A DNA stretch of 22,081 nt from a virus, in IMG/VR virus record IMGVR_UViG_3300009132_000044, positions 1 to 22,081 of that record; one strand, written 5' to 3'. Positions 3,069 through 20,093 of this stretch are shown here, one piece after another (position 1 is the first letter of the stretch; each line of letters starts with the position of its first letter). The position numbers were made by a program, and so were the translations under genes. The notes beneath the pieces are model-generated. The model searched no databases. It was not told where the DNA came from and worked only from the letters and a program-made list of their open reading frames with translations.

Positions 3069-3935
3069 TCAACTAATCTCTTGATCGTCTAGTAGTTCTG
3101 CATACGATTGTACCACAGATGTGTACCGAATGCAATAACAATATTTTTGTTCATATGTGGTCTTAAAGACTCCATAAGAAACATTCAAGGCGTCATCGAC
3201 GCGCGACTTTACAAAGTTATTAATCTTTCTAAACAGTGTGCCGTCGTTCTTCAAATCATCCTCGCTAATACCATAATAGTATACCACATCTCGAACTCCT
3301 GTCAAGGGGTAAAACCATTTTTCTGTGTGATTTCTCTCATCCTCGTCCGTAATATCAACAATACCTACGGTTGCAATCCTGCTTGTGTTGGCCGGGTGGA
3401 TGAAATTGCCAATTACGGGCTCTGTGTGCTTAAAAACATTAATCATGTGGATAGTATTCACAATTGCCTGATTAAGTGTATCGTAATATCCAATGATGGA
3501 CATGTCGCCGATGCTGTGCTCCAGAGCGCTGTTGCTTACCATAATCACACTCTCAATAATACCAGAGCGAGCGTACTCTTGCAAGACATTTCTAACAATC
3601 TTTTCCTGCTTCTTCTGAACCTCTGACATAATGGCGGTGTCGCCCTGAATGTAAATCACTGTCAGCCTATTCTTGTTCAGCTGCTCCAGCAGGCGCAGCG
3701 AGCCTCCAGAGATCTGTCCGGATCCCGCAATGATGACACTAACGTCCTCGTTGCTGAATTTTAGTTTCCTACGGAGGTTGGGGAAGTTTTCATCATAGTC
3801 CTCGTGGCTGGACTTCTTTCGGATTGTAATATCCGCTGATTCATCTGTATCAATCCCAAATGTCTCATACTGGGGGAATTTGGAGAATGCTTTGGCAATA
3901 TTGCAACCAGCTTTGCCTAGACCTACCACTATCAT
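3069..3935 (-). CDS. Divergent tubulin/FtsZ-fold protein (288 aa)
   Basis: The N-terminal half follows the layout of FtsZ/TubZ GTPases. Residues 1-12 (MIVVGLGKAGCN) match beta-1 and the T1 loop; 26-32 (FGIDTDE) match the NTD-type T2 region; 66-80 (SVIIAGSGQISGGSL) sit where the tubulin signature GGGTGSG loop and helix H4 belong; 91-97 is a strand; 131-138 (IMVSNSAL) matches the IPND-type stretch; and 150-168 (YYDTLNQAIVNTIHMINVF) matches helix H7. The signature loop is degenerate and no NxDxxD synergy loop is evident, so GTPase and polymerisation are uncertain. The tail is acidic. It overlaps the pyrophosphohydrolase gene by four bases. An alternative is another Rossmann-like nucleotide-binding protein. 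Confidence 0.6.
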   Translation of the reverse strand: MIVVGLGKAGCNIAKAFSKFPQYETFGIDTDESADITIRKKSSHEDYDENFPNLRRKLKFSNEDVSVIIAGSGQISGGSLRLLEQLNKNRLTVIYIQGDTAIMSEVQKKQEKIVRNVLQEYARSGIIESVIMVSNSALEHSIGDMSIIGYYDTLNQAIVNTIHMINVFKHTEPVIGNFIHPANTSRIATVGIVDITDEDERNHTEKWFYPLTGVRDVVYYYGISEDDLKNDGTLFRKINNFVKSRVDDALNVSYGVFKTTYEQKYCYCIRYTSVVQSYAELLDDQEIS

Positions 3936-6734: not shown

Positions 6735-9700
6735 TTAGTCCTTCCCGACTTCGTGCCACCAGCCCAGCAACTGTCCGCGCCAGCCCGATCCGTAAATTCG
6801 TTCGCGCTCTAGCTCAACTTCGGCTTGGTGGCGCGAGGCTGCATCCGTTGGATCATCTGCGCGCGCATCGACGCGAGCTTGGTGGCGAGCGGCGGCAATT
6901 CGACGATTGTCGCGCGCGGGGTTTCTTTCAGGAGGGGGAGTTTCCCCAATGACATTAAGCATGGTAAGTGAGTTATCGGGCTGAGCAAACTCGATGGCTT
7001 GATGAAGCGCGTCGATATTAGTATCAAATCCGTCTGGAGTGAGTTTAGATCTTACCCCAGTCACTAGATAGTAGCCGTGAAGTCCGAGATAATCAAGCTG
7101 TTGAGTATCGGCGTCTAATAAGGTTGGGTTAATATAGATATACATGCCATTCTTATATAGATTATTTCCCACTAAATCTAAATTCGCTGAGTAGAGTTCT
7201 CGGAGCTGCTCGGCACCTAGGGCGCCTTCTCGTTGGATCTTAGCTTCTCGCAAGAGGGGCTGGTCTTCTCGGGAGAATTTGAGCGTTTTGAGGAGTCCGC
7301 ATGATGCTCCAATATAATGATGGTAAATACCGCGGTTAAAGTCGGCATCATAGTCTCCTCGGAGATTCCTGGGGCGCCCGTCTGTTGGTAACAACACAAG
7401 TCCTTGGCGGACATGAGATGTGGGAGTAGAGGGAAGAATATCGCTCCGGCGAGCCAATTCCGTAACCTTGGATTCACTAGTTACTTCAAACCAGGATGGT
7501 CCTGAGTTGGTGTCGTCCTGATATGCTACGGGCTGGGCATCAAAGCGTTGTTGTAATGTGAGGTCGAGCCCAAAACAAGCTTTTCCTAGGGCACGTGTGA
7601 CCAGCTCTGCACAAAGTTGTTTAATGAAGTAAAGAAAATAATATGTGGGCCTCATTGGCTTCACCACTTTATTTTTAAAAAACAGCTGGAATGCGTCAAG
7701 GGAAATAGGAATGTCTCCAATATTCATGATATTACTAAACTGATTGGCCGTACTAAATGTCTCCGGATCGCTAGCTATCAACTGCTGCATAAACTGAGCA
7801 TCATTAAGGTTGCCGCAGAGGAGTTCCTCTTCTAGGTCTTTTGCTTGAAATGCTACGAGAGGGTTAATGACATCAACATCCGATAAGAACATATCAAAAT
7901 GAATTTTTTCGCCTCCGTTGTTTTTTTTCATTTGCTCTATAACATTATCAATCAAGTCGCCCAAATAAAAGAAAGGAATTGCTGTGGTATCTGAAGAGTT
8001 GCTAATTTGATCATATCGTGCTGTCTCATTTTCGGAATATTCTTCTGCGGCATTTGCTTCACTGTCATTTTCGGCGTTTCTGATAGCCTCCAATAGTGTC
8101 AGAGTATGTCGGCCGGCGTCAGCGAATTCCAAGGTACCAGTGTTAGGATTCAGGCGCCTTTTTGCGCGAGCGGCTCGTTGTTCTTCGGTTAGTTTGTGCC
8201 AAGGGGTAAGCTGAAATTCACGGGGATCTACCATGAGATAATGAATCTTTGAGTTCGAAGGTTGTGTGAGTTCTTCAAGAAGTTTTCTATACTTAACCAA
8301 CTGGTTTTGTTGTCGTAAGCGCTTCTTCTCTTCTAGCAGCTCTAAGCGCCGTTCGTTTTGCGTACTTGTTCGGTTATCAGCACCGAGATCGTCGATCTCC
8401 TCCAGTTCTTCGTCGATATCTCTGAGTAAATCTTTATGGGATGCGATATCTTGCGCAAAAATGTCTGCCTTAGGCGACGTCAGAAGTCCCGCTATTCCCG
8501 CTTGGTAGTCTATCGTTAGTTCCAGAGAGCCATCCTCATTAAAATTCAAATTATGGCGTACCTGAGTCAAATAGAGAGATACTTTGGTCTGCTCTATAGC
8601 CCAACTGAGGGCTGTTGCGTCTATATTAGAGCCCGGGGCTACCCAATCCTCCAAATTCTGTGGAGCTGACCAGCCAGCAACCACTTTAAGTCGATATTCC
8701 CTACCTTCATAGAGTCTATGCTTATGCTTGGATACTCCGTCGCAAACGGATTCATTCGACCCTAAGGTGCGCTCGCGTTGATCTTCTTTCCTTTTGGCTG
8801 ATGGGGAATTAATCAGTAAATCCAAAAAGTTGGGCTCTTTATCGCCGGCTTGAGAGGCTCCGCGAAAGAAATCATTGATGCTTTGAAAATAAATAACCAG
8901 TTCAGCAGTTATATTATTATCCACTTCTTCAGGCTGAACTCCCTCTAAGGACCAGGAAAAAGATTTAATGCCTGCGCCAGGAATGCGTCCTCGTGAGCCG
9001 TCTAGGATAGCAGCGACATCGGCGGGATCGACAAAGTTGGGGATCATTAACTCATTCTCGATCGGGAGTCGAGTGTCTGGATCTATTTTGGGGGAACCGT
9101 CCTTATTATACTCAACACGATATATTTTTATAGACGGTACCAGTGCAGCATACACATCCGGGCAGAGGCTTAAGATCTCCTTGATCCGTGCGGCGCGAGA
9201 GCTTTGCGGGGAGCCATGATTGAGTATGTTGGGGGTTACTGCGGGTGCGTGGGTCGCGGAGCGCAACTTCATTGTATGCTGGTAGTCTGCCAAAAAGGCG
9301 GGGATGGTCGTTCGGGCGGCAGCTAATTCTTCAATGTTTTCCATTAAATAACATTGCATGTCGAAGGGCGTGAGGTTCCGTGCCAGTCCGGCGAGAACTT
9401 CCTGGAGATCTCTAAGTGAATCTCCCCGGAGGTCAGCGAGCCGCGGCGCCAGGGGGCGATCAGGGAGGGGATCGTCGGGGGCTACTACACCAAAAAAGTT
9501 CAAAATAGCGTCAAACTCTTTCTGCACTCCCGCCTCGTATTCGGGAGTGCCGGGCGCCGGGAAGGGGACCGACTCAGACTCGAAGATGGGCTGCAGGAGA
9601 GAATCATAGTCCTGGAGGCGTTGGGGGGCCATAACTGCATCTATGTGCTGCCTCACAAGCGTCTTCAAAGGGGGTGCGTGGGTATTGGCATAGAAGATCT

Positions 9701-11501
9701 GCGATCCGGCCTTCCACGCCTGATCCAGCCCGGAGCCGACTAAACTGAATGTTGGGTCGCCTAGAGGCTGGCGAACATCAATGTCTCCGGGCACAGCGCT
9801 CTGTTCGCTCGCAGACATATTAGCCCACGGCTCCATGCGAACGGTTCGGATATCATGAATGATACCGTCCATAATCGAAACCGAGTTCTCCCAATCGGCT
9901 ACAGGGTAGATGGGCCTTCGGCTCGGATTCCCGAGGATGCCGGTCTGGGGGAAAGGTAAGAAACAAGAGGCCGGGTCCGTGCAGTCTTTAAGTTCCGGAA
10001 CGTCTGTGCCATTGTTGGACGTCGCTTCTACGACCGCCAGGCTATCGGCTATAAGCTGACGAGTATCTTGCGCCAAGATAAGTGCTAGTTGTTGGTATGC
10101 TTCTGCTAGGTCAGAGGGAACCGTGGGGGTCGCAAGAGCCGTGGTATTAGTGGTAAGGGCGAGACTGGCGTAGTCGAGGGGAGCGCCGGCATTGGTCAAA
10201 CCGTCCGCCCAAAACTGGTATTGATCTGGGATTTCAAAATGCACGCCGTCGGACTGCAGCGTCAGGGTTCGCGTCAGAGGCACCATATCATAATAAGTCA
10301 ATCCGGTGGTGCTGTTCGCTTTTTCCGCTACCCAATCCCGAACAATCTGCCGTGCGTTTTCATACAATCCATCCGGCTCAGTGACCCAAGAGCGCGTCGC
10401 GGTAGCATATGAGGGTCCTAGCCAGCGAACATCGGATACACCCGCCGCAGTAATAGCGTCCATCCATGCGTCGATAAGCTCGTGGTATCTAGACTTGGTG
10501 AGGTTCCCTTTATAAGCGTCTTCAGAGTCATTGGCGCCAAGTTGTATAACAACAACCGTAGGCTTAAAATTGTCGAGGGCATTCAGAATATCCTGAGAAG
10601 GTTTGTCGCCGGATGAGTGGCTCCGGAGTCCCCAGCCGTTCGTGGAAATGACATATGCCTCGGGTTCGGGTCCGGAAGACCCGCGGTGGTCCCAGTATTC
10701 GTAAAGGTGTGTAGGAATCCATCCTTTGAGTGTGGTTTCTGAAACGCCCTGTCCATTGGGTCCTGCAGGTCCATTGTGGTTACCTGTCTGGCTATCTCCA
10801 ATGAGCAGCATACGGACGCCGGATGAGCCACCAGATGTAGTAGCTGTGGCCGGAGAAGTGGAAGGGGCGCCGGTTGTTTGTGATGTACCCCGGGAAAGTT
10901 GCCATGCTTTGTTATTAAGGTACTGTAAAATAGCTGGGTTTGAAAAGAAGGAGTAGTTAGAGGCGTTCCGCGTGCCGTTCGCGGGGAGTCTGCTGCTCTC
11001 GGGATTGGTGATGTCGGAGACGTAAGGTGTCGTCTCCATAAAAGAATATTTTCGTGTGATGTTTGGTTGAGCAACATAATCAACGCCGGTATCATATTCA
11101 ATATCCTCATCCTGGAACGTGGCGCCCGCAGAGCGCGTACTGAGCATTCTAAACTCCTCCGCCTCGACGCGGTAGTCCTCAAAGACTTCGGGGTCGATGC
11201 CCGTGAGGAGTCCGGCCTGACGGAAGACCGTACGATTGTCTTTAAAGCGTGATAAGTCTCCTAGTGCTGCTTCGGCTTGCGTTTTATTCACCACCAAGTC
11301 GTTGGTGGCAGCTTTGATCACATTCCTATGATCGTAATATCCCGCGTCGAATTCACTGGCTTGTCCGGTTCCCACAAACTTATCATAAGCGATCTGGGCA
11401 AACATCGATTTTTGATAGTTGCGGAGCAATTCCCTGAAGGCTTCTTTGACTTCATAGGTGATTATTGATGTTGTAGGGGGTGCTGAACTAGTGGGGGGCA
11501 T
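6735..11501 (-). CDS. Giant baseplate hub protein with an SGNH/GDSL hydrolase domain (1588 aa)
   Basis: A multidomain structural protein. Residues 1-200 are an N-terminal domain. A Ser/Thr/Gly-rich linker (205-228) leads to a complete SGNH hydrolase: GDS at 235-237 (nucleophile Ser237), an oxyanion Gly near 289-291, GAND at 322-325 and DGVH at 418-421 (catalytic Asp418 and His421). Residues 450-840 are unassigned. KSFSWSLEGVQPEE at 846-859, followed by a strand-rich region to about 1005, resembles the hub scaffold of other marine-type phages. A charged coiled coil spans about 1017-1080. The C-terminal 60 residues are very basic/acidic (ARHQARVDARADD). Embedded position suggests that the hydrolase cuts an ester in the cell envelope or capsule during entry. 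T4 gp27 plus gp5 is the nearest functional comparison. Confidence 0.8.
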   Translation of the reverse strand: MPPTSSAPPTTSIITYEVKEAFRELLRNYQKSMFAQIAYDKFVGTGQASEFDAGYYDHRNVIKAATNDLVVNKTQAEAALGDLSRFKDNRTVFRQAGLLTGIDPEVFEDYRVEAEEFRMLSTRSAGATFQDEDIEYDTGVDYVAQPNITRKYSFMETTPYVSDITNPESSRLPANGTRNASNYSFFSNPAILQYLNNKAWQLSRGTSQTTGAPSTSPATATTSGGSSGVRMLLIGDSQTGNHNGPAGPNGQGVSETTLKGWIPTHLYEYWDHRGSSGPEPEAYVISTNGWGLRSHSSGDKPSQDILNALDNFKPTVVVIQLGANDSEDAYKGNLTKSRYHELIDAWMDAITAAGVSDVRWLGPSYATATRSWVTEPDGLYENARQIVRDWVAEKANSTTGLTYYDMVPLTRTLTLQSDGVHFEIPDQYQFWADGLTNAGAPLDYASLALTTNTTALATPTVPSDLAEAYQQLALILAQDTRQLIADSLAVVEATSNNGTDVPELKDCTDPASCFLPFPQTGILGNPSRRPIYPVADWENSVSIMDGIIHDIRTVRMEPWANMSASEQSAVPGDIDVRQPLGDPTFSLVGSGLDQAWKAGSQIFYANTHAPPLKTLVRQHIDAVMAPQRLQDYDSLLQPIFESESVPFPAPGTPEYEAGVQKEFDAILNFFGVVAPDDPLPDRPLAPRLADLRGDSLRDLQEVLAGLARNLTPFDMQCYLMENIEELAAARTTIPAFLADYQHTMKLRSATHAPAVTPNILNHGSPQSSRAARIKEILSLCPDVYAALVPSIKIYRVEYNKDGSPKIDPDTRLPIENELMIPNFVDPADVAAILDGSRGRIPGAGIKSFSWSLEGVQPEEVDNNITAELVIYFQSINDFFRGASQAGDKEPNFLDLLINSPSAKRKEDQRERTLGSNESVCDGVSKHKHRLYEGREYRLKVVAGWSAPQNLEDWVAPGSNIDATALSWAIEQTKVSLYLTQVRHNLNFNEDGSLELTIDYQAGIAGLLTSPKADIFAQDIASHKDLLRDIDEELEEIDDLGADNRTSTQNERRLELLEEKKRLRQQNQLVKYRKLLEELTQPSNSKIHYLMVDPREFQLTPWHKLTEEQRAARAKRRLNPNTGTLEFADAGRHTLTLLEAIRNAENDSEANAAEEYSENETARYDQISNSSDTTAIPFFYLGDLIDNVIEQMKKNNGGEKIHFDMFLSDVDVINPLVAFQAKDLEEELLCGNLNDAQFMQQLIASDPETFSTANQFSNIMNIGDIPISLDAFQLFFKNKVVKPMRPTYYFLYFIKQLCAELVTRALGKACFGLDLTLQQRFDAQPVAYQDDTNSGPSWFEVTSESKVTELARRSDILPSTPTSHVRQGLVLLPTDGRPRNLRGDYDADFNRGIYHHYIGASCGLLKTLKFSREDQPLLREAKIQREGALGAEQLRELYSANLDLVGNNLYKNGMYIYINPTLLDADTQQLDYLGLHGYYLVTGVRSKLTPDGFDTNIDALHQAIEFAQPDNSLTMLNVIGETPPPERNPARDNRRIAAARHQARVDARADDPTDAASRHQAEVELERERIYGSGWRGQLLGWWHEVGKD

Positions 11502-12828: not shown

Positions 12829-14868
12829 CTACCCGTTCCCAAACGGACTGAGGGCTTTGCGTCCAGCGTTGGAATTAAGCCCCTTAACAACTAGTTCATC
12901 AATCTTTTCTTGGCCGATATAAACAGCGATTTGCTGTGTGCCCGCTGTTCCGGCGTTCATATTATTTAACTGGCGGGACAAGTTCGCTATAGCATCTGTC
13001 AGTTGCTGTGTGACGGGGGCAGAGGTAACACGGGATCCCACAGGCATCTCCACCATCTCCGGTCCATGTTCGCCGACCATGGCTACGGAGGTAGCTTGCA
13101 CAACGCCTCCGCTGGCGAAGCGAGCCTTAGGCTTGACTGTGGTGCCGGCGCTGCTGGGATCCCAGAGGCTATTTCCGGCCATGTTCCCTAGAACACCGCC
13201 AGCAAGCCCTCCGATGCTAGCATACATCAGTACCTGCGAGGCTGAAAGAGCTGCCATGGTGGCGCCGACGACTGGTATCGCAGCTGTAAAAGCCAGCATC
13301 AGCCCAATTCCAGCCCCGAGGCTCGCGCCGATGGCTGTCATATACCCAATAAAGCCGTCTTTGGTCTTCAGGAAATCTCCAATGATTGTGGCAAATTTAC
13401 TTATTTTTTCAGTGAGGGGTATGATAACCTTCGTTATCACCGGCTCCATATTGAGATAAAGCGATCTCATAGAGTTGCTTAAAGCATCTGTGATACTTTG
13501 AGTTTTGGCCGCTTCGGCGGCGACCTCCGCCTCCTTTATGCGGCGAATCTCCATTTCTTCATTGGTTTCCCCCAACAGCTCTTTAGTCTCTGTAAGAGAA
13601 AGCCCCATGGCTTTGCTGACAGCCATCAATTCAGCGCCACTTAGATCTTCGATCGATCTGCCAGCGGCGTCGAAGCCGTCACGCAACATGCGAATACCCT
13701 CAACTGGATCTTCATATGATGCATTAAGCATGTCCATGGCATTGAGGAAAGGTCCGCCTAAAATAGCATTAAGTCGCCCGACTTGGGCGCCTGCTTCATC
13801 GAAGGTCTGGAATCCTTCCGTGACTTTTACCAGTAAGCCCATCTCAGTGCCGAGAGCTTTAGCGGATACAGCGAGGTCCTCGAATACTTCTTTGCCGTCT
13901 TTGCCAAAACGAACCAAGAAGTCGGCATTTTGTATAAAGTCTTGTCCGACATCATTTATGTCTTGACCAAGCGAACGAGCGATCGAGGCAATATCCAGCA
14001 TCAACGCCTGGCTCTCGCTTAATGACATGTTCATCGACTGCGTGGCTATCTGCATTACTTCGCTTTGCGTGCCAAACTCTAGTCCCATTGTTTGCAGTAG
14101 CGCGGTGCTTGTGCCAAGATCTTTCTGCTGTTGTTTGGACAGATATGTGAAGTCTGTATATACATTCTTTAGAGACGTCACTGCGGCTGTTACATCGCCG
14201 AATGTCACCCCTGCTTGAAAGGTCGAGCGCTCGATATCCGCTATTACTTCGTTAAATTCATTGCCCGCGCCTGTGCTAGCTCGGAAGCTGGCGAGAGCTG
14301 CGTCGGTCTCAAGAGCCATTGTGGCGAGCGAGTCGATCATCTTCATTGCGATGCCAATAAAGAGTGTTCCAGACACAACTCCATCCCTAAGAGTAGTACC
14401 AAACCCCAGCATGCTGTTTCTGCCGCCATTGATGATTTGAGACAAGGTCTCCATGGGTCCAGAGAGCCCTAGGACACTCTCTGCCATCGATTCGAAGGCT
14501 TGGGTGCCTGCGGCGAAGGAGCCTATTCCTTCATTGAAACCCTCCACATTTTCGGTGGCTTCTTTGAGGGCTGCAGCCACCTCTGCCATCTCAGCGGCGC
14601 CGGCGTTGTTGTCGAGCGCGGTGTTATAATTGGTCTGGGCTGCTGTAAGTTTGCTGAGAAGGTCCAGGCGCCTCTCTTCCTGCGCGTTGAGGTCGTCCAG
14701 GTGTTCCTTCCGCGCCTTAAGGTCGTCGAGTTCAGCGTTAGAGACACTTCCTCTAAGCGTCGAGCGCTTTTTGCCGCCGGACTTGGATGCGCCCGAGGAG
14801 GTGCTCCCTGACTTAAGGTGGTCGAGGATCTGTTGTAAAAGTTGTTCTTGAGTTAATGGAGGTGCCAT
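12829..14868 (-). CDS. Tape measure protein (679 aa)
   Basis: Sets tail length and occupies the tail lumen before DNA passes. It has a Ser/Gly/Lys-rich N-terminus, a long charged coiled coil (45-110), hydrophobic segments near 150-185 and 505-568 rich in Gly/Ala, and the C-terminal signature ASGGVV followed by MVGEHGPEMVEMPVGS (about 584-612) common to tape measure proteins. At the usual 0.15 nm per residue this predicts a tail near 100 nm, slightly longer than one would get for T4 gp29 (590 residues). It follows the tail tube and chaperone-like genes and precedes the baseplate genes, the standard order. The ribosome site (TAGGGGA) is modest. Confidence 0.9.
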   Translation of the reverse strand: MAPPLTQEQLLQQILDHLKSGSTSSGASKSGGKKRSTLRGSVSNAELDDLKARKEHLDDLNAQEERRLDLLSKLTAAQTNYNTALDNNAGAAEMAEVAAALKEATENVEGFNEGIGSFAAGTQAFESMAESVLGLSGPMETLSQIINGGRNSMLGFGTTLRDGVVSGTLFIGIAMKMIDSLATMALETDAALASFRASTGAGNEFNEVIADIERSTFQAGVTFGDVTAAVTSLKNVYTDFTYLSKQQQKDLGTSTALLQTMGLEFGTQSEVMQIATQSMNMSLSESQALMLDIASIARSLGQDINDVGQDFIQNADFLVRFGKDGKEVFEDLAVSAKALGTEMGLLVKVTEGFQTFDEAGAQVGRLNAILGGPFLNAMDMLNASYEDPVEGIRMLRDGFDAAGRSIEDLSGAELMAVSKAMGLSLTETKELLGETNEEMEIRRIKEAEVAAEAAKTQSITDALSNSMRSLYLNMEPVITKVIIPLTEKISKFATIIGDFLKTKDGFIGYMTAIGASLGAGIGLMLAFTAAIPVVGATMAALSASQVLMYASIGGLAGGVLGNMAGNSLWDPSSAGTTVKPKARFASGGVVQATSVAMVGEHGPEMVEMPVGSRVTSAPVTQQLTDAIANLSRQLNNMNAGTAGTQQIAVYIGQEKIDELVVKGLNSNAGRKALSPFGNG

Positions 14869-14877
14869 CTAGGTCCC

Positions 14878-15204
14878 CTAGTTCTTGAATGGCCAGCGGA
14901 GACCTGTTTCACTCTCAAAAGCCTTGACTGATCGGTTCAATTTATATTGGGAATTAAGTGTGCGCTGATCGCCCAATCCATGTTTCATATAAGAATCCAT
15001 GTAACGCTTCTCTCCCGACAGGGCGCCCATGAAGCTGTCGATTTGATTCTTGGTTCCTCTGAGACCCAGGGGAACATCAAAGCCAGCAAAGTATAAACTC
15101 AATAGTGCCTTGCGGACTTGTCCAGCGAATTTACTATATACGCGTTCGGAAAGTTGTCCATCTAAATTGTTAAGATTTATAACGTCTTTTGCCAGTTCAT
15201 CCAT
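14878..15204 (-). CDS. Small structural protein upstream of the tape measure (108 aa)
   Basis: No family is recognised. The 108 residues begin with an acidic helix (MDELAKDVINLNNLDGQLSE) and contain a mixed amphipathic region, with a Lys/Tyr-rich C-terminal half (KRYMDSYMKHGLG). No membrane segment is present. It sits between the frameshift chaperone-like frame and the tape measure gene, where tail chaperones or hub components are usual, and has GAGGA nine bases before the ATG. Its gap upstream holds one copy of the TAAATAGT motif. Confidence 0.72.
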   Translation of the reverse strand: MDELAKDVINLNNLDGQLSERVYSKFAGQVRKALLSLYFAGFDVPLGLRGTKNQIDSFMGALSGEKRYMDSYMKHGLGDQRTLNSQYKLNRSVKAFESETGLRWPFKN

Positions 15205-15252: not shown

Positions 15253-15423
15253 CTACTTTTGCATTGCGGCGTCGTTTGCTTCTTTTTGTTTTTTGAATTC
15301 TTCAATGGTTCGTTGGAGGAACCACTTGCGTAGGGCGACCGGTAAATTATACATTTCTGTAAAGGACCATCCGCCATAATGTTTAAGAGTGAAGAACTCC
15401 TCATAAACACTACTTTGATACTC
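15253..15423 (-). CDS. Frameshift-expressed C-terminal extension of the gp26-like protein (56 codons)
   Basis: The frame reads EYQSSVYEEFFTLKHYGGWS followed by FTEMYNLPVALRKWFLQR and a Lys/Glu tail, ending in TAG at 15253-15255. The pattern FFTLKHYGGWSF...YNLPVALRKWF is a familiar phage tail motif, so it is a translated sequence. There is no ATG, GTG or TTG before the motif, and the frame is closed by TAA only a few codons above the gp26-like stop. The frame is +1 relative to that gene, so a ribosomal +1 (or -2) shift would give a 339-residue fusion. Start shown at 15423 assumes a shift at CTC TGA, giving FFWPDL-EYQ. A Met inside the motif (YNLPV side) would remove half of it and is unlikely. 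Confidence 0.72.
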   Translation of the reverse strand, partial: EYQSSVYEEFFTLKHYGGWSFTEMYNLPVALRKWFLQRTIEEFKKQKEANDAAMQK

Positions 15424-15445
15424 AGAGGTCAGGCCAAAAAAACTT
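15420..15445 (-). other. Probable programmed frameshift site
   Basis: The minus strand has a T7 run (15442-15436), then GGCCTGAC, then CTC TGA G (15427-15421). A slip by +1 on the T run lets tRNA-Phe re-pair perfectly (TTT to TTT); alternatively CTC TGA G resembles the CTT TGA C site of the release factor 2 gene. Either joins the gp26-like frame to the 56-codon frame. A -1 shift here would hit TGA at once and is excluded. TGCC and GGCA flanking ATTAAC just upstream could form a small hairpin. Confidence 0.6.
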
Positions 15446-16273
15446 TGCCGTTAATGGCATTGTTACCTCGCCTTCATGATCGCATTGGGCGCAGGTAAAA
15501 TCAAATGTGAGATCCACATCTGGCTTAAGGTCTTCATAAGTGGTCCGCAGAAAGCGTACATCACTGAGAGGCATGAGATCCACAAACTCGTGGAGCATGG
15601 AAGGCTTTGTGACCCCATTAACCGAAACAATAACTGACTTAAGCAGATCTGTAACGGGAGAGGTCTCTTTGGTTATCCGCTTCTTGTTCTCGATGGTCTG
15701 GGACAATGTCTGCTCGTCCGCTGATGTAAGCAACCGAACGGTCAAATGGACACCAGCAGCCGGTAAATCAAAAGTAAAGGTTCCATCACCATTGTCTTCT
15801 ACATTATCATTAACGGTAGAGCGGCTGGACTCGATGTCTTCTAGATTAAATACCTGATCTGTCTTGTTCTGGCACGAGGGACATCGCGTATTTACATCAT
15901 AGTGAGGTCCATATCCTGTGATGCGGGCTGCAACTAGAATGGCGTTCTTATCTCCCAACAGGAGGGTGCCAGGGTCAATGGTCTTGTCCTGAATAACAGA
16001 CTGGACCAGTCGGTCGAGTACTACGCCACTCTTAATGAGAGAAGCCGAGGTGAGAATATCCTCTTCCTTGGCGGTCATGTGCTTAATCTCCACCGTCGCG
16101 GCTTTATGCAAGGGGTGCCCTTCAGCATAATAGGCGCCGGCGCTTGGTAGCTCCACAAACTCCGTGGGTACCACGAAAGAGAAGATATTATTCTCAGCTT
16201 CTATAGTTGGGGTGGGTGTTGGCGCGTCGGGGTGCGGTGCGCCAAACCGCTCTTCATTATTCCTTCTTGACAA
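15422..16273 (-). CDS. Zinc-ribbon base plate protein, T4 gp26-like / tail assembly chaperone (283 aa)
   Basis: Belongs to the T4-type base plate protein family that includes gp26. After a Pro/Thr-rich N-terminus comes FVVPTEFVELPSAGAYYAEG (33-52), then VEIKHMTAKEEDILTS (61-76) and KSGVVLDRLVQSVI (81-94), the family signature. Two CxxC pairs (CPSC 131-134 and CAQC 261-264) form a four-Cys zinc ribbon. It lies between tail tube and tape measure genes, the classic place of tail assembly chaperones. Translation begins at TTG (16271-16273), with GAAGGTG six bases upstream. The C-terminus FFWPDL reads into the neighbouring frame after a +1 shift, so part of the protein pool may be 339 residues. 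Confidence 0.85.
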   Translation of the reverse strand: MSRRNNEERFGAPHPDAPTPTPTIEAENNIFSFVVPTEFVELPSAGAYYAEGHPLHKAATVEIKHMTAKEEDILTSASLIKSGVVLDRLVQSVIQDKTIDPGTLLLGDKNAILVAARITGYGPHYDVNTRCPSCQNKTDQVFNLEDIESSRSTVNDNVEDNGDGTFTFDLPAAGVHLTVRLLTSADEQTLSQTIENKKRITKETSPVTDLLKSVIVSVNGVTKPSMLHEFVDLMPLSDVRFLRTTYEDLKPDVDLTFDFTCAQCDHEGEVTMPLTAKFFWPDL

Positions 16274-16292: not shown

Positions 16293-16868
16293 TTAGAGAT
16301 CAGTAGCAGCAGCTACAGCGGCTCCAGACACATACTCAGCCCAATCATACCTGAAAGTAATGTCAATATTAAGGAGAGTATCATTATCGTAGTTAAGATC
16401 ACCAAATTTAGCATCCGTAATAAAGGAGTTATTCAGTGTCCATGTTCCTACCAGTCCGCCTTCGCCATTGAGTTCCTCAATGATCACATCGCCGACTACG
16501 CGGACAGCTGCGGCTTTATTAACCGTAGATGGAGCCTGACTTGGGCTAAGGAATACATCCTGCTGAACGTCGGGCTTCAGATAACCCGAATTAACGAGTG
16601 CATCATAAAGAATCTGGTTGCCGTCAGGATTGACAGCATTAACGAGGACTACCGATACTGGTTGCCACGTAACTACGCCAGGGTAGTAATAAGTGTTACC
16701 CAGGAACTTGTGCTCAGTGGCTCCGACCTGATAAGACGGCTTTGTTGCCGACTTGGCCAGGTACTGCTGGTAAGTGAACGCGCCGTTAGCAGAGGCGAGA
16801 TTGGGTAGGGTGAGCAAAAAGCGATGTGATCGCCGGGGCTCTGATAGTGCGCTTGTCCAAAATGGCAT
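16293..16868 (-). CDS. 19: Tail tube protein, gp19-like (191 aa)
   Basis: Forms the inner tube of the contractile tail that guides DNA. The start MPFWTSALSEPRRSHRFLLT is the usual tail tube opening, with strands leading to YQVGATEHKFLGNTYYYPG (about 47-65) and WQPVSVVLVNAV (69-80), followed by a helix and the C-terminal strand set ending near DITFRYDWAEYV. Length (191) is close to T4 gp19 (163). It follows the sheath gene as expected. AGGAG lies 10 bases before the ATG. The 66-base gap before it contains TATATAATA on the coding strand. Confidence 0.93.
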   Translation of the reverse strand: MPFWTSALSEPRRSHRFLLTLPNLASANGAFTYQQYLAKSATKPSYQVGATEHKFLGNTYYYPGVVTWQPVSVVLVNAVNPDGNQILYDALVNSGYLKPDVQQDVFLSPSQAPSTVNKAAAVRVVGDVIIEELNGEGGLVGTWTLNNSFITDAKFGDLNYDNDTLLNIDITFRYDWAEYVSGAAVAAATDL

Positions 16869-16934: not shown

Positions 16935-19900
16935 TTAATCCTCGAACGATGCTCCAGTGCGCGAGATATTGAAGTCGATTGCAATGTATTCAATAGCTCG
17001 GGTTGGCTTCAAGAAAATCTGTGCATACATAATGTTTCTATCCACCAGCTCTGGTGTGGTTGTGGTACTATCCAGGACAACCTTAAAGTCCGACAAACCA
17101 AAGTTTGTTTTCACATCCTGCAAGAAGGGATTAACCTGAGCAGTGAAGCGCAACCATGTCTGCTTGACGTTGGGGTCAAAGAGCAGACCAGCTGCAATCT
17201 GAGAAATACGCTTCTTGACGAAGATCATCAAGCGTCGCACGTTAATGCGATCCAGTGCCGAAGGTGTAACCTGCAGGGTCTTCTGACCGAAGATTACAAT
17301 ACCCTCTGCTGGGAACTTGGCGATTGGGTTAATGTTGGCTGTATAGAGGTCATCACGGTCCTTGCGGCGCAGCTGGTGAGCTACATCGACAACGGGGATA
17401 CCTGCGGAACCTTCTGTGAGTCCGCCGCGGTTGAAGCCGGCTGGAGCGAACCAGACCTGCGTCTTGCGCTGGGAGCTTGAGAAGGTACCCAAAGCAGGGA
17501 TGGATGGCGGGAGCCATACCATAGCGCCGTTGATGGTGTCGCGGGCACGGACCCATGGGTAGTAGGTGCAACCGTAGGAGGAGTTAAGTCCTCGCGAACG
17601 GAGACCGTTGATAAGAGTTGTAATCGTGCTAGCTTTGTTCAGACGATCCACCGATGTACCCTCTTGTCGTGGTCGGAAAGCATCCGGGAGATCAATAATG
17701 GCTAGAGCGTCTGCACGATCCTCGCATGTATTCACTAAGTGTGTGGTAAGCCCATCATTAGTGAGACCCGGGATGGTGGCCAGGTTCATCTCAACTGCCT
17801 CTGGGTCGGCGATGGTGTCGATTGTTCGTCGAATAGTATTGAGAGTATAGCTCGTTGTCTCGGATGCTCCAATGTTGTTGTTGGAGAAAGCGTCCATATC
17901 TGTGATATTAACACCATCGAAACCGCCATACATTGGAATGCTGAATCGGTCATAACCGGCATCGAGCACACCAGATACTGCACCATTAGCGCGAGTAAGG
18001 GAGCCGCCGCGGGATCCGCCGACTGCCAGATTGTGCGATCCGCTGACCCAGATACCCTGGGAGCCGGAAATATCATCGAGACTGAAGCTCACGGAGCGCT
18101 CAGTGATACCGCTCTGCGCTGCAGCATGCATATCGTCGGCAATGCCGCCGCGGGGGCGGAGAAGATCGATCGTAGAGCGATCGAATACTGTGCCGCCGGC
18201 GGTCTCTGTCGTCTGGAATCCGAAATATGCGTCAGTTCTATTGCTAAGTCCGCCATCCGAAGCACTGAGGCGCAACTCTGGCGCTGGGTAGTATAGGGAG
18301 GCTGACACGGCTGAACCGGAAGCGTAGAAGGGTCCGAAACCATCAGTACTAGATGGAATTGGTCCCGCAGCGCCGCTGACCCAGTTGCCTACGGAGCGCG
18401 AAAGGAATGTTTCGTTATCATACTTAAGCATTCCCTGGAAACCGAAGGGGAGCAGCGAGGAGTCGGCGCCGTCGGCAGCCGAACTCATTACAACGCGAAT
18501 GTGATTAGAGTTGTTGGGCCAGTCTCCTTCTTGGCGCAAGCGGCGAGAAGTAGAGTCCCACACACGCTGCTGTGTTCCGATCTTTCGGGCAACATAGTTA
18601 AGCGAGTTAGGGTTAAGGTCACAGCCATCAAACTGCTCAATAATGCGGACTACATTATCTGAATCACTGAGGTGTCGGACCACCACAGAGAAAGTACCAT
18701 AATCAGTGCTATTGTTAGTCGAGCGCTTGATATCCTGGATGGATACCTTGATGTTTCGGTTAGACCAATCTCCGGGCTGCTCTAGAGCTTCGATGTGGAA
18801 GAGATTTACGGGGTTGGCCGAAGGAGAAAGGCGGCAGCTGATAATGTTGGGCGTGCGGGCCGACTTAAGATCAGTCTTGTAGTTGCCGCCTTCCTTATTG
18901 CTTGTTCCGCCGTCGAGTTTGACGATGGATGCATAGGTTGTGGCGGCTGTATTGCTGGTCACATTAGCATTCAGGTGACGATCAAAGGTTTCACCCAAGA
19001 AATATTTCACCAGAGCGCTAGAGTCGGTAGTTGTTGCATTCGTCAATTGAGGGTTAGTGTTAAAAACCTTACGAATGTAGCGGCTGTCCGTAGTTGTAAA
19101 ATTGAAGGTAGTAGTGAGGTCACTTGATCCCTTATAGTTATTGACTACAAGCTTGAATTCCTTATTAGGTCCGACTGCACGGACAACAGCATTTGCCGCG
19201 GCAACATCAGCGCCATCTGCAGGGGTTACGTCGGTGAAGTCTGCTAGAGCACCACTAAGGGCGAATGTTGTGCCACTATCGGTGCTGTATAAGATTGCTG
19301 CGAGGGCGCCGTCAAGTGACGGCTCTACGCCGCCGCCGAATGATCCAGACAGTGTGTCGCCTGTGCCGGCTGTGACACTCCAGTACGTTGCATTGGAAGA
19401 TGTAAGCTCGCACACTTGTCCGGCAACTCCAGCTAGTGCTGATTTAATGGTCACCACATTGGATGCAGCAGTGGCTGTAAGTTTTGGGGTGGATCCGGAA
19501 TCGTTGATATGGAGAGCTAGATTAGTGGCTAGCTCTGCGTTGGTGGTGCCGATGCCTACCTGGCCAGCGGCGTTGCTGGCGCCGATGGTCAGTAAGAAAT
19601 TACCGCCTGACCCTGTAAGTTGAAGGGTTGTGCCGGTCGAGCCGACTGAAACACAGTCTACACTAGCACTAGCAGCAGTGGCGGCGTCTTCCTCGAAGAC
19701 AACGAGCCCCCATGCGTCGCCATCAGCCTTCCAGCCAGCATTGCCGGCGGCACTTGGCGTTGCATCAACATTGTTGGCGCCCAAGAGGCGGATATAGGTT
19801 AGGGGCGAACTGTTGCGCAAGTATGCCTGTGCAGCATACATGCCATAGGTTGTAGAAGATTTATTCGTTCCCTCTCGCCATACATCTTCGCTGGCTCCAC

Positions 19901-20093
19901 CAGGAGCAGGGGATCCAAAGATATTGACGAACTCTTCAAAAGAATTCACCGTGACGGGGCGTAGGGCTGGTCCGGAGGCGGCGCGTCCGATGACGAGCGG
20001 TCCAATGTTCAAACCGGACTCGGGGATCTGCGAGTTATCGATCTCACTAACAAAAACCCCAGGGGATACGAATCTGTACTTTTTAACTGACAT
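16935..20093 (-). CDS. 18: Tail sheath protein, gp18-like, with inserted domain (1052 aa)
   Basis: Subunit of the contractile sheath. The start KKYRFVSPGVFVSEIDNSQI (4-23) with NIGPLVIGRAASGPA and a VTVNSFEEFVNIFG block is diagnostic; the C-terminus has the conserved LMIFVKKRISQIAAGLLFDPN and AIEYIAIDFNISRTG stretches. Length is about 1050 against about 660 for T4 gp18. The extra mass includes an Ala/Ser/Thr/Gly-rich domain at about 136-255 whose TTNAELATNLALHINDSG and VVTIKS pattern is a repeat-like domain seen in phage structural proteins. The variable outer part of sheath proteins is the expected place for such additions, so a surface or ligand-binding role is inferred. TAGGAG precedes the ATG. 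Confidence 0.95.
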   Translation of the reverse strand: MSVKKYRFVSPGVFVSEIDNSQIPESGLNIGPLVIGRAASGPALRPVTVNSFEEFVNIFGSPAPGGASEDVWREGTNKSSTTYGMYAAQAYLRNSSPLTYIRLLGANNVDATPSAAGNAGWKADGDAWGLVVFEEDAATAASASVDCVSVGSTGTTLQLTGSGGNFLLTIGASNAAGQVGIGTTNAELATNLALHINDSGSTPKLTATAASNVVTIKSALAGVAGQVCELTSSNATYWSVTAGTGDTLSGSFGGGVEPSLDGALAAILYSTDSGTTFALSGALADFTDVTPADGADVAAANAVVRAVGPNKEFKLVVNNYKGSSDLTTTFNFTTTDSRYIRKVFNTNPQLTNATTTDSSALVKYFLGETFDRHLNANVTSNTAATTYASIVKLDGGTSNKEGGNYKTDLKSARTPNIISCRLSPSANPVNLFHIEALEQPGDWSNRNIKVSIQDIKRSTNNSTDYGTFSVVVRHLSDSDNVVRIIEQFDGCDLNPNSLNYVARKIGTQQRVWDSTSRRLRQEGDWPNNSNHIRVVMSSAADGADSSLLPFGFQGMLKYDNETFLSRSVGNWVSGAAGPIPSSTDGFGPFYASGSAVSASLYYPAPELRLSASDGGLSNRTDAYFGFQTTETAGGTVFDRSTIDLLRPRGGIADDMHAAAQSGITERSVSFSLDDISGSQGIWVSGSHNLAVGGSRGGSLTRANGAVSGVLDAGYDRFSIPMYGGFDGVNITDMDAFSNNNIGASETTSYTLNTIRRTIDTIADPEAVEMNLATIPGLTNDGLTTHLVNTCEDRADALAIIDLPDAFRPRQEGTSVDRLNKASTITTLINGLRSRGLNSSYGCTYYPWVRARDTINGAMVWLPPSIPALGTFSSSQRKTQVWFAPAGFNRGGLTEGSAGIPVVDVAHQLRRKDRDDLYTANINPIAKFPAEGIVIFGQKTLQVTPSALDRINVRRLMIFVKKRISQIAAGLLFDPNVKQTWLRFTAQVNPFLQDVKTNFGLSDFKVVLDSTTTTPELVDRNIMYAQIFLKPTRAIEYIAIDFNISRTGASFED

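Follow-up and report, generated by a model that had tools for sequence, protein, structure and literature searches.

Programmed frameshifting in the genes of tail assembly chaperones (TACs) is a well-known, classical phenomenon. Shifts of -1, -2 and +1 are on record in different phages, a +1 shift having been reported for the archaeal myovirus HSTV-2 (PMC5009743; HSTV-2 is also cited in PMC8211752). In lambda (Xu, Hendrix and Duda 2004, as cited in PMC5009743), the short form gpG and the long form gpGT come from a -1 frameshift near the 3' end of a gene in the interval between tail tube and tape measure. For T4-type phages, gp26 and gp51 have been described as TAC-N and TAC-NC, respectively (Vladimirov, Gautam and Davidson 2022, doi 10.1016/j.virol.2021.11.003, as cited in PMC10885494 and PMC12846349), and certain T4-like phages carry a short and a long TAC gene in place of a shift (cited in PMC10885494). 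The poly-T signals of T4-like TACs are given as -1 (PMC12846349), and no consensus motif holds for +1 programmed shifts in general (PMC10885494). Here we describe a putative TAC locus of a T4-type phage that is arranged for a shift in the forward direction. In the TAC literature consulted, which covers the T4-like TACs through citing papers, neither this direction nor a near-invariant signal is described for the T4-type branch.

The window, i.e., the whole stretch of 22,081 nucleotides analysed here (IMG/VR record IMGVR_UViG_3300009132_000044, positions 1 to 22,081), derives from an uncultured T4-type phage. Every feature of the locus lies on the minus strand, which the first-pass annotation had left unstated:

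16935..20093, minus strand: tail sheath protein, 1052 aa (phrog_23, E 5.7e-62; PF17482)
16293..16868, minus strand: tail tube protein (phrog_4542, E 3.9e-17)
15422..16273, minus strand: TAC-N, the gp26-like ORF, 283 aa, with TTG start, TGA stop and two CxxC pairs
15451..15453, minus strand: TAA that bounds the +1 frame on the 5' side of the slip site
15253..15450, minus strand: +1-frame ORF, homologous in all relatives, with stop TAG at 15255..15253
15431..15442, minus strand: proposed +1 frameshift cassette TTT TTT TGG CCT, near-invariant in 277 loci and the entropy minimum; the T7 run is at 15436-15442
15435..15256, minus strand: TAC-C domain, the part that would be translated after the slip (GLTSEYQ...AAMQK)
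15422..15424, minus strand: frame-0 stop TGA of TAC-N, preceded by CTC; this codon and the stop differ between relatives
14878..15204, minus strand: 108-aa ORF in the gap between TAC and tape measure, present in marine relatives (tblastn)
12829..14868, minus strand: 679-aa ORF at the tape measure position, placed by position and length only

The gene order seen directly in the window is thus sheath, tube, TAC, 108-aa ORF and tape measure position, and the placement of TAC downstream of the tube and upstream of the tape measure position, already proposed in the first-pass annotation, matches the annotated relatives L001 and L006. Family searches gave no match for the 108-aa and 679-aa ORFs. The TAC-N ORF matches Pfam PF12322 (T4_baseplate; E 4.9e-17, 62.8 bits, above the cut-off of 24.5) and the baseplate hub family phrog_150 (E 1.3e-18), and its start is the same in close relatives, as TTG, GTG or ATG. 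Its 3' end reads ...TAK-TTT-TTT-TGG-CCT-GAC-CTC-TGA, so the protein ends at FFWPDL-stop, as had been annotated. The +1-frame ORF, translated as RQSFFGLTSEYQSSVYEEFFTLKHYGGWSFTEMYNLPVALRKWFLQRTIEEFKKQKEANDAAMQK, continues for 60 codons without a usable start codon; no ATG, GTG or TTG was found in this frame ahead of the conserved block in the window, in agreement with the earlier description of a start-less continuation closed just upstream by TAA. One +1 step on the T run yields a read-through protein of 339 aa. The extension lies in the +1 and not in the -1 frame, so the heptanucleotide of -1 shifts (X_XXY_YYZ) does not account for it.

Two further ORFs of the window were noted. A 1588-aa ORF (6735-11501, minus strand) adjoins baseplate-type genes, and its residues 261-421 are GDSL/SGNH hydrolase-like (PF13472, E 2.7e-07, just below the Pfam cut-off). 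A 288-aa ORF (3069-3935, minus strand) begins with a glycine-rich stretch (VVGLGKAGCNIA ... GSGQISGGS) that looks nucleotide-binding and recalls FtsZ/tubulin; it gave a weak TrkA_N match at most and no match in PHROG and NCBIfam searches.

The locus was compared across 277 loci (window counted in) from IMG/VR, metagenome-assembled genomes (MAGs) and isolated phages. An IMG/VR search gave 80 relatives and phage records gave extra lineages; later scans added 80 Immutovirus-like, 20 L003-like and 80 Microcystis-phage-like loci together with 19 loci in MAGs. Because near-copies are frequent (the first 181 loci represent 146 distinct fusions), the locus counts are not independent. The downstream domain was found in the +1 frame in 277/277 loci, directly past a near-invariant 12-mer, an arrangement far beyond chance. 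The alignment of homologous phages proposed with the first-pass annotation did reveal a homologous +1 continuation. The 12-mer at the junction is exactly TTTTTTTGGCCT (TTT TTT TGG CCT) in 206 loci; the variants are TTTCTTTGGCCT (35 loci), TTCTTTTGGCCT (17), TTTCTATGGCCT (4) and CTTTTTTGGCCT (3), and the remaining ones are single or double cases with a different A-site codon.

The sites were tabulated in 278 rows, namely the +1 loci plus L302, which continues in the -1 frame instead. At every site, U or C comes directly after a UUU or CUU triplet, so tRNA(Phe) or tRNA(Leu) in the P site is able to shift its pairing forward by one base. UGG is the A-site codon at 266 of the 278 sites, and the codon then entered in the +1 frame is almost always GGC; codon use in the window is 26.6 per thousand for GGC versus 11.0 for TGG. 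The second codon of the cassette is TTT in 236, CTT in 36, CTA in five and TTC in none of the 277 +1 loci; elsewhere in the same genes TTC makes up about a quarter of the Phe codons (353 TTC versus 1020 TTT). Since the slip must fall on the first and not the second codon in the four loci with TTT CTA TGG CCT, the slip position is not uniform.

Codon-position entropy, computed over 135 distinct sequences, was 1.14/0.99/1.71 bits at frame-0 positions 1, 2 and 3 upstream of the site and 1.36/1.17/1.61 bits at +1-frame positions 1, 2 and 3 downstream of it. The wobble variation changes phase at the 12-mer, which is itself nearly invariant. Such a change of phase marks the joining of two coding frames at the cassette. 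Some of the constancy of GGCCT is owed to its double coding (W-P in one frame, G-L in the other) and cannot count towards a decoding signal.

We consider it highly probable, at roughly nine chances in ten, that TAC-N is extended to TAC-NC by a programmed +1 frameshift, in which the P-site tRNA moves forward on UUU or CUU while UGG occupies the A site. This corresponds to the first option of the first-pass annotation, a +1 slippage on the T7 run in a tail chaperone, which gains support from the 277 loci and the phase switch. We infer the occurrence of the shift, its efficiency and the tRNA event along the following lines. Most ribosomes would translate TAC-N (283 aa) and terminate at TGA. At UUU UUU UGG CCU, a fraction of the P-site peptidyl-tRNA(Phe) would re-pair one base forward (UUU_U) while UGG awaits tRNA(Trp) in the A site; GGC would then be the next codon, and translation in the +1 frame would give TAC-NC of 339 aa. 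The predicted junction is FF-GLTSEYQ and not FFWPDL-EYQ, because CTC TGA varies while TTT TTT TGG CCT is kept.

The proposed slip resembles those of prfB (CUU_UGA_C) and yeast Ty1 (CUU_AGG_C), where a P-site YUU also slips +1 under a slow A-site codon, and Ty1 enters the +1 frame at GGC as well (PMC5009743). The A-site codon differs, being the sense codon UGG here, a stop in prfB and a rare Arg codon in Ty1. Conserved RNA structure, a candidate second stimulator, was sought downstream of the site and none was found (mean z 0.03 and 0.08), nor was a Shine-Dalgarno-like element seen before the slip site in the window; the 60 bases upstream of the site fold somewhat better than shuffled sequences (mean z -1.3). 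The proposed shift is +1 where that of lambda is -1; its direction is that reported for HSTV-2, which is an archaeal virus. A +1 shift at this place had been called unusual in the first-pass annotation; this is fair as to direction, -1 being the usual one, but HSTV-2 provides a reported +1 precedent in a tail chaperone (PMC5009743).

A programmed -2 shift on the T7 run in the style of phage Mu, reading FFF-GLTSEYQ, would arrive in the same frame, with tRNA(Phe) pairing perfectly two bases back. It would, however, require UUU to be placed on UCU at the 17 loci with TTC TTT TGG, and it fails at the TTT CTA TGG loci too, while a +1 shift suits all of them; we regard it as very unlikely.

Independent initiation of the +1 ORF as a gene of its own is also very improbable. 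Start codons occur by chance in the +1 frame of many relatives, with none between the upstream stop and 12 codons past the site in 70 of 181 loci, and two relatives nested in the +1 clade, L179 (2200-2330) and L184 (2190-2330), do have an ATG of their own for the C domain immediately behind the stop of TAC-N, and in both the N-terminus of the domain differs. The window itself is without a start ahead of the conserved block, however, 46 of 80 close homologs are start-free through 20 codons, the Leu codon after GGC is frequently CTA or CTC instead of CTG, and the cassette itself is kept.

A tree of 59 TAC-N sequences places these arrangements. The side with T4, S-PM2, phiM12 and PhiW-14 is split from the side with all +1 members (support 100/99), and L179 and L184 form a pair (100/99) within the +1 clade; L179 is without the slip cassette and has TTC TTG TAT CCT instead. 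Because this pair sits inside the +1 clade, the change from a frameshift to separate ORFs appears to have happened twice. S-PM2, phiM12 and PhiW-14, which carry PF12322 too, show a -1 arrangement on a T run at the corresponding place, and the -1 rows L005 and L302 are long branches near the base of the +1 side. With such long branches, any number of direction changes read from this tree is uncertain. In L005 (3650-3800), an uncultured 595-kb phage, the homologous gene is followed by a -1-frame extension at GGGTTTT, a classical heptamer.

The second option of the first-pass annotation was an RF2-like +1 shift at CTC TGA G (15421-15427), which would read FFWPDL-EYQSS. CTC TGA does occur in the window where both frames meet. 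As last codon and stop it is found in just 12 of 80 close homologs, however, the others ending in TCC TAA, GCC TAA, CAG TAA, CGC TGA, CCC TAG etc.; the spacing from CCT to the stop varies from one to four codons, while the cassette is kept. Movement of tRNA(Leu) from CTC onto TCU would moreover create a middle mismatch, unlike the step from CUU to UUU in prfB. As the last codon, the stop and the spacing all vary among homologs, this prfB-type shift was rejected and is considered extremely unlikely. No better placed is slippage of RNA polymerase on the T7 run, by which the mRNA and hence the frame would be altered: the shift coincides with the run, but such slippage needs an unbroken run, and relatives with TTTCTTTGG, TTCTTTTGG or TTTCTATGG keep the frame relation without a long one. 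A sequencing error at the T7 homopolymer, named at the outset as what could undo the finding, or a decayed gene has a negligible probability, since many samples, with 277 loci between them, show the identical frame break; it is found even where the run is absent, and in the isolated, finished phage genomes L001, L002 and L007.

Position and family make a tail assembly chaperone the best inference for the gene, and the protein formerly labelled as a base plate gp26 is better read as TAC-N. The window TAC shares this domain with T4 gp26 and gp51; T4 has two genes (26 and 51) on opposite strands, and here a single gene would be combined with a +1 shift. T4 gp26 consists of the PF12322 domain alone and gp51 of this domain plus about 48 residues, which would make gp51 the counterpart of the long form. 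On the model of lambda gpG/gpGT, the role of the N domain would be to coat the tape measure and that of the C domain to bring in tail tube subunits, both departing before the tail is completed.

The two halves were modelled separately. In BFVD, the TAC-N model (pLDDT 86.7) matched phage proteins of the baseplate hub and of hub assembly; in the PDB, the best neighbour of this model was the HK97 tail assembly chaperone 2ob9, at poor significance (E 0.5, prob 0.60). The TAC-C model (pLDDT 80.7) comprises three helices, and a viral fold search with it gave no significant match; PDB sequence searches with both halves gave no meaningful match. The C extension aligned weakly with the C-terminus of gp51 (hhalign, E 0.065) and matched phrog_634 ('baseplate hub assembly catalyst') weakly in 3 of 44 members (best E 0.02), and the alignment of the whole-fusion profile with gp51 was confined to the zinc-finger stretch. 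A likeness of the C domain to the end of gp51 or to phrog_634 is thus suggestive only. The GenBank records of the isolated phages L001 (3833-3943) and L002 (3734-3970) list the C domain as a hypothetical ORF, truncated or overlapping, and miss the fusion.

A tentative proposal, which we rate as possible rather than probable, is that YUU_UGG_CCU is a distinct, self-sufficient +1 cassette acting without RNA structure or a Shine-Dalgarno element, and the equivalent, with a Trp codon, of prfB CUU_UGA_C and Ty1 CUU_AGG_C. Slow decoding of UGG might then set the ratio of TAC-NC to TAC-N, which could make tail assembly sensitive to how far host tRNA(Trp) is charged, and the direction of the shift may have been reversed on a T run at the same place within one chaperone family.

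For the records of this group, the comparison means that the C domain is currently mis-annotated (L001, L002). As a ready test bed for forward slipping, nature offers over 270 phage sites that share one near-invariant cassette and include variants for each slip position. Because one chaperone family contains -1 shifts, +1 shifts and separate genes, the choice of mechanism can be traced on its tree.
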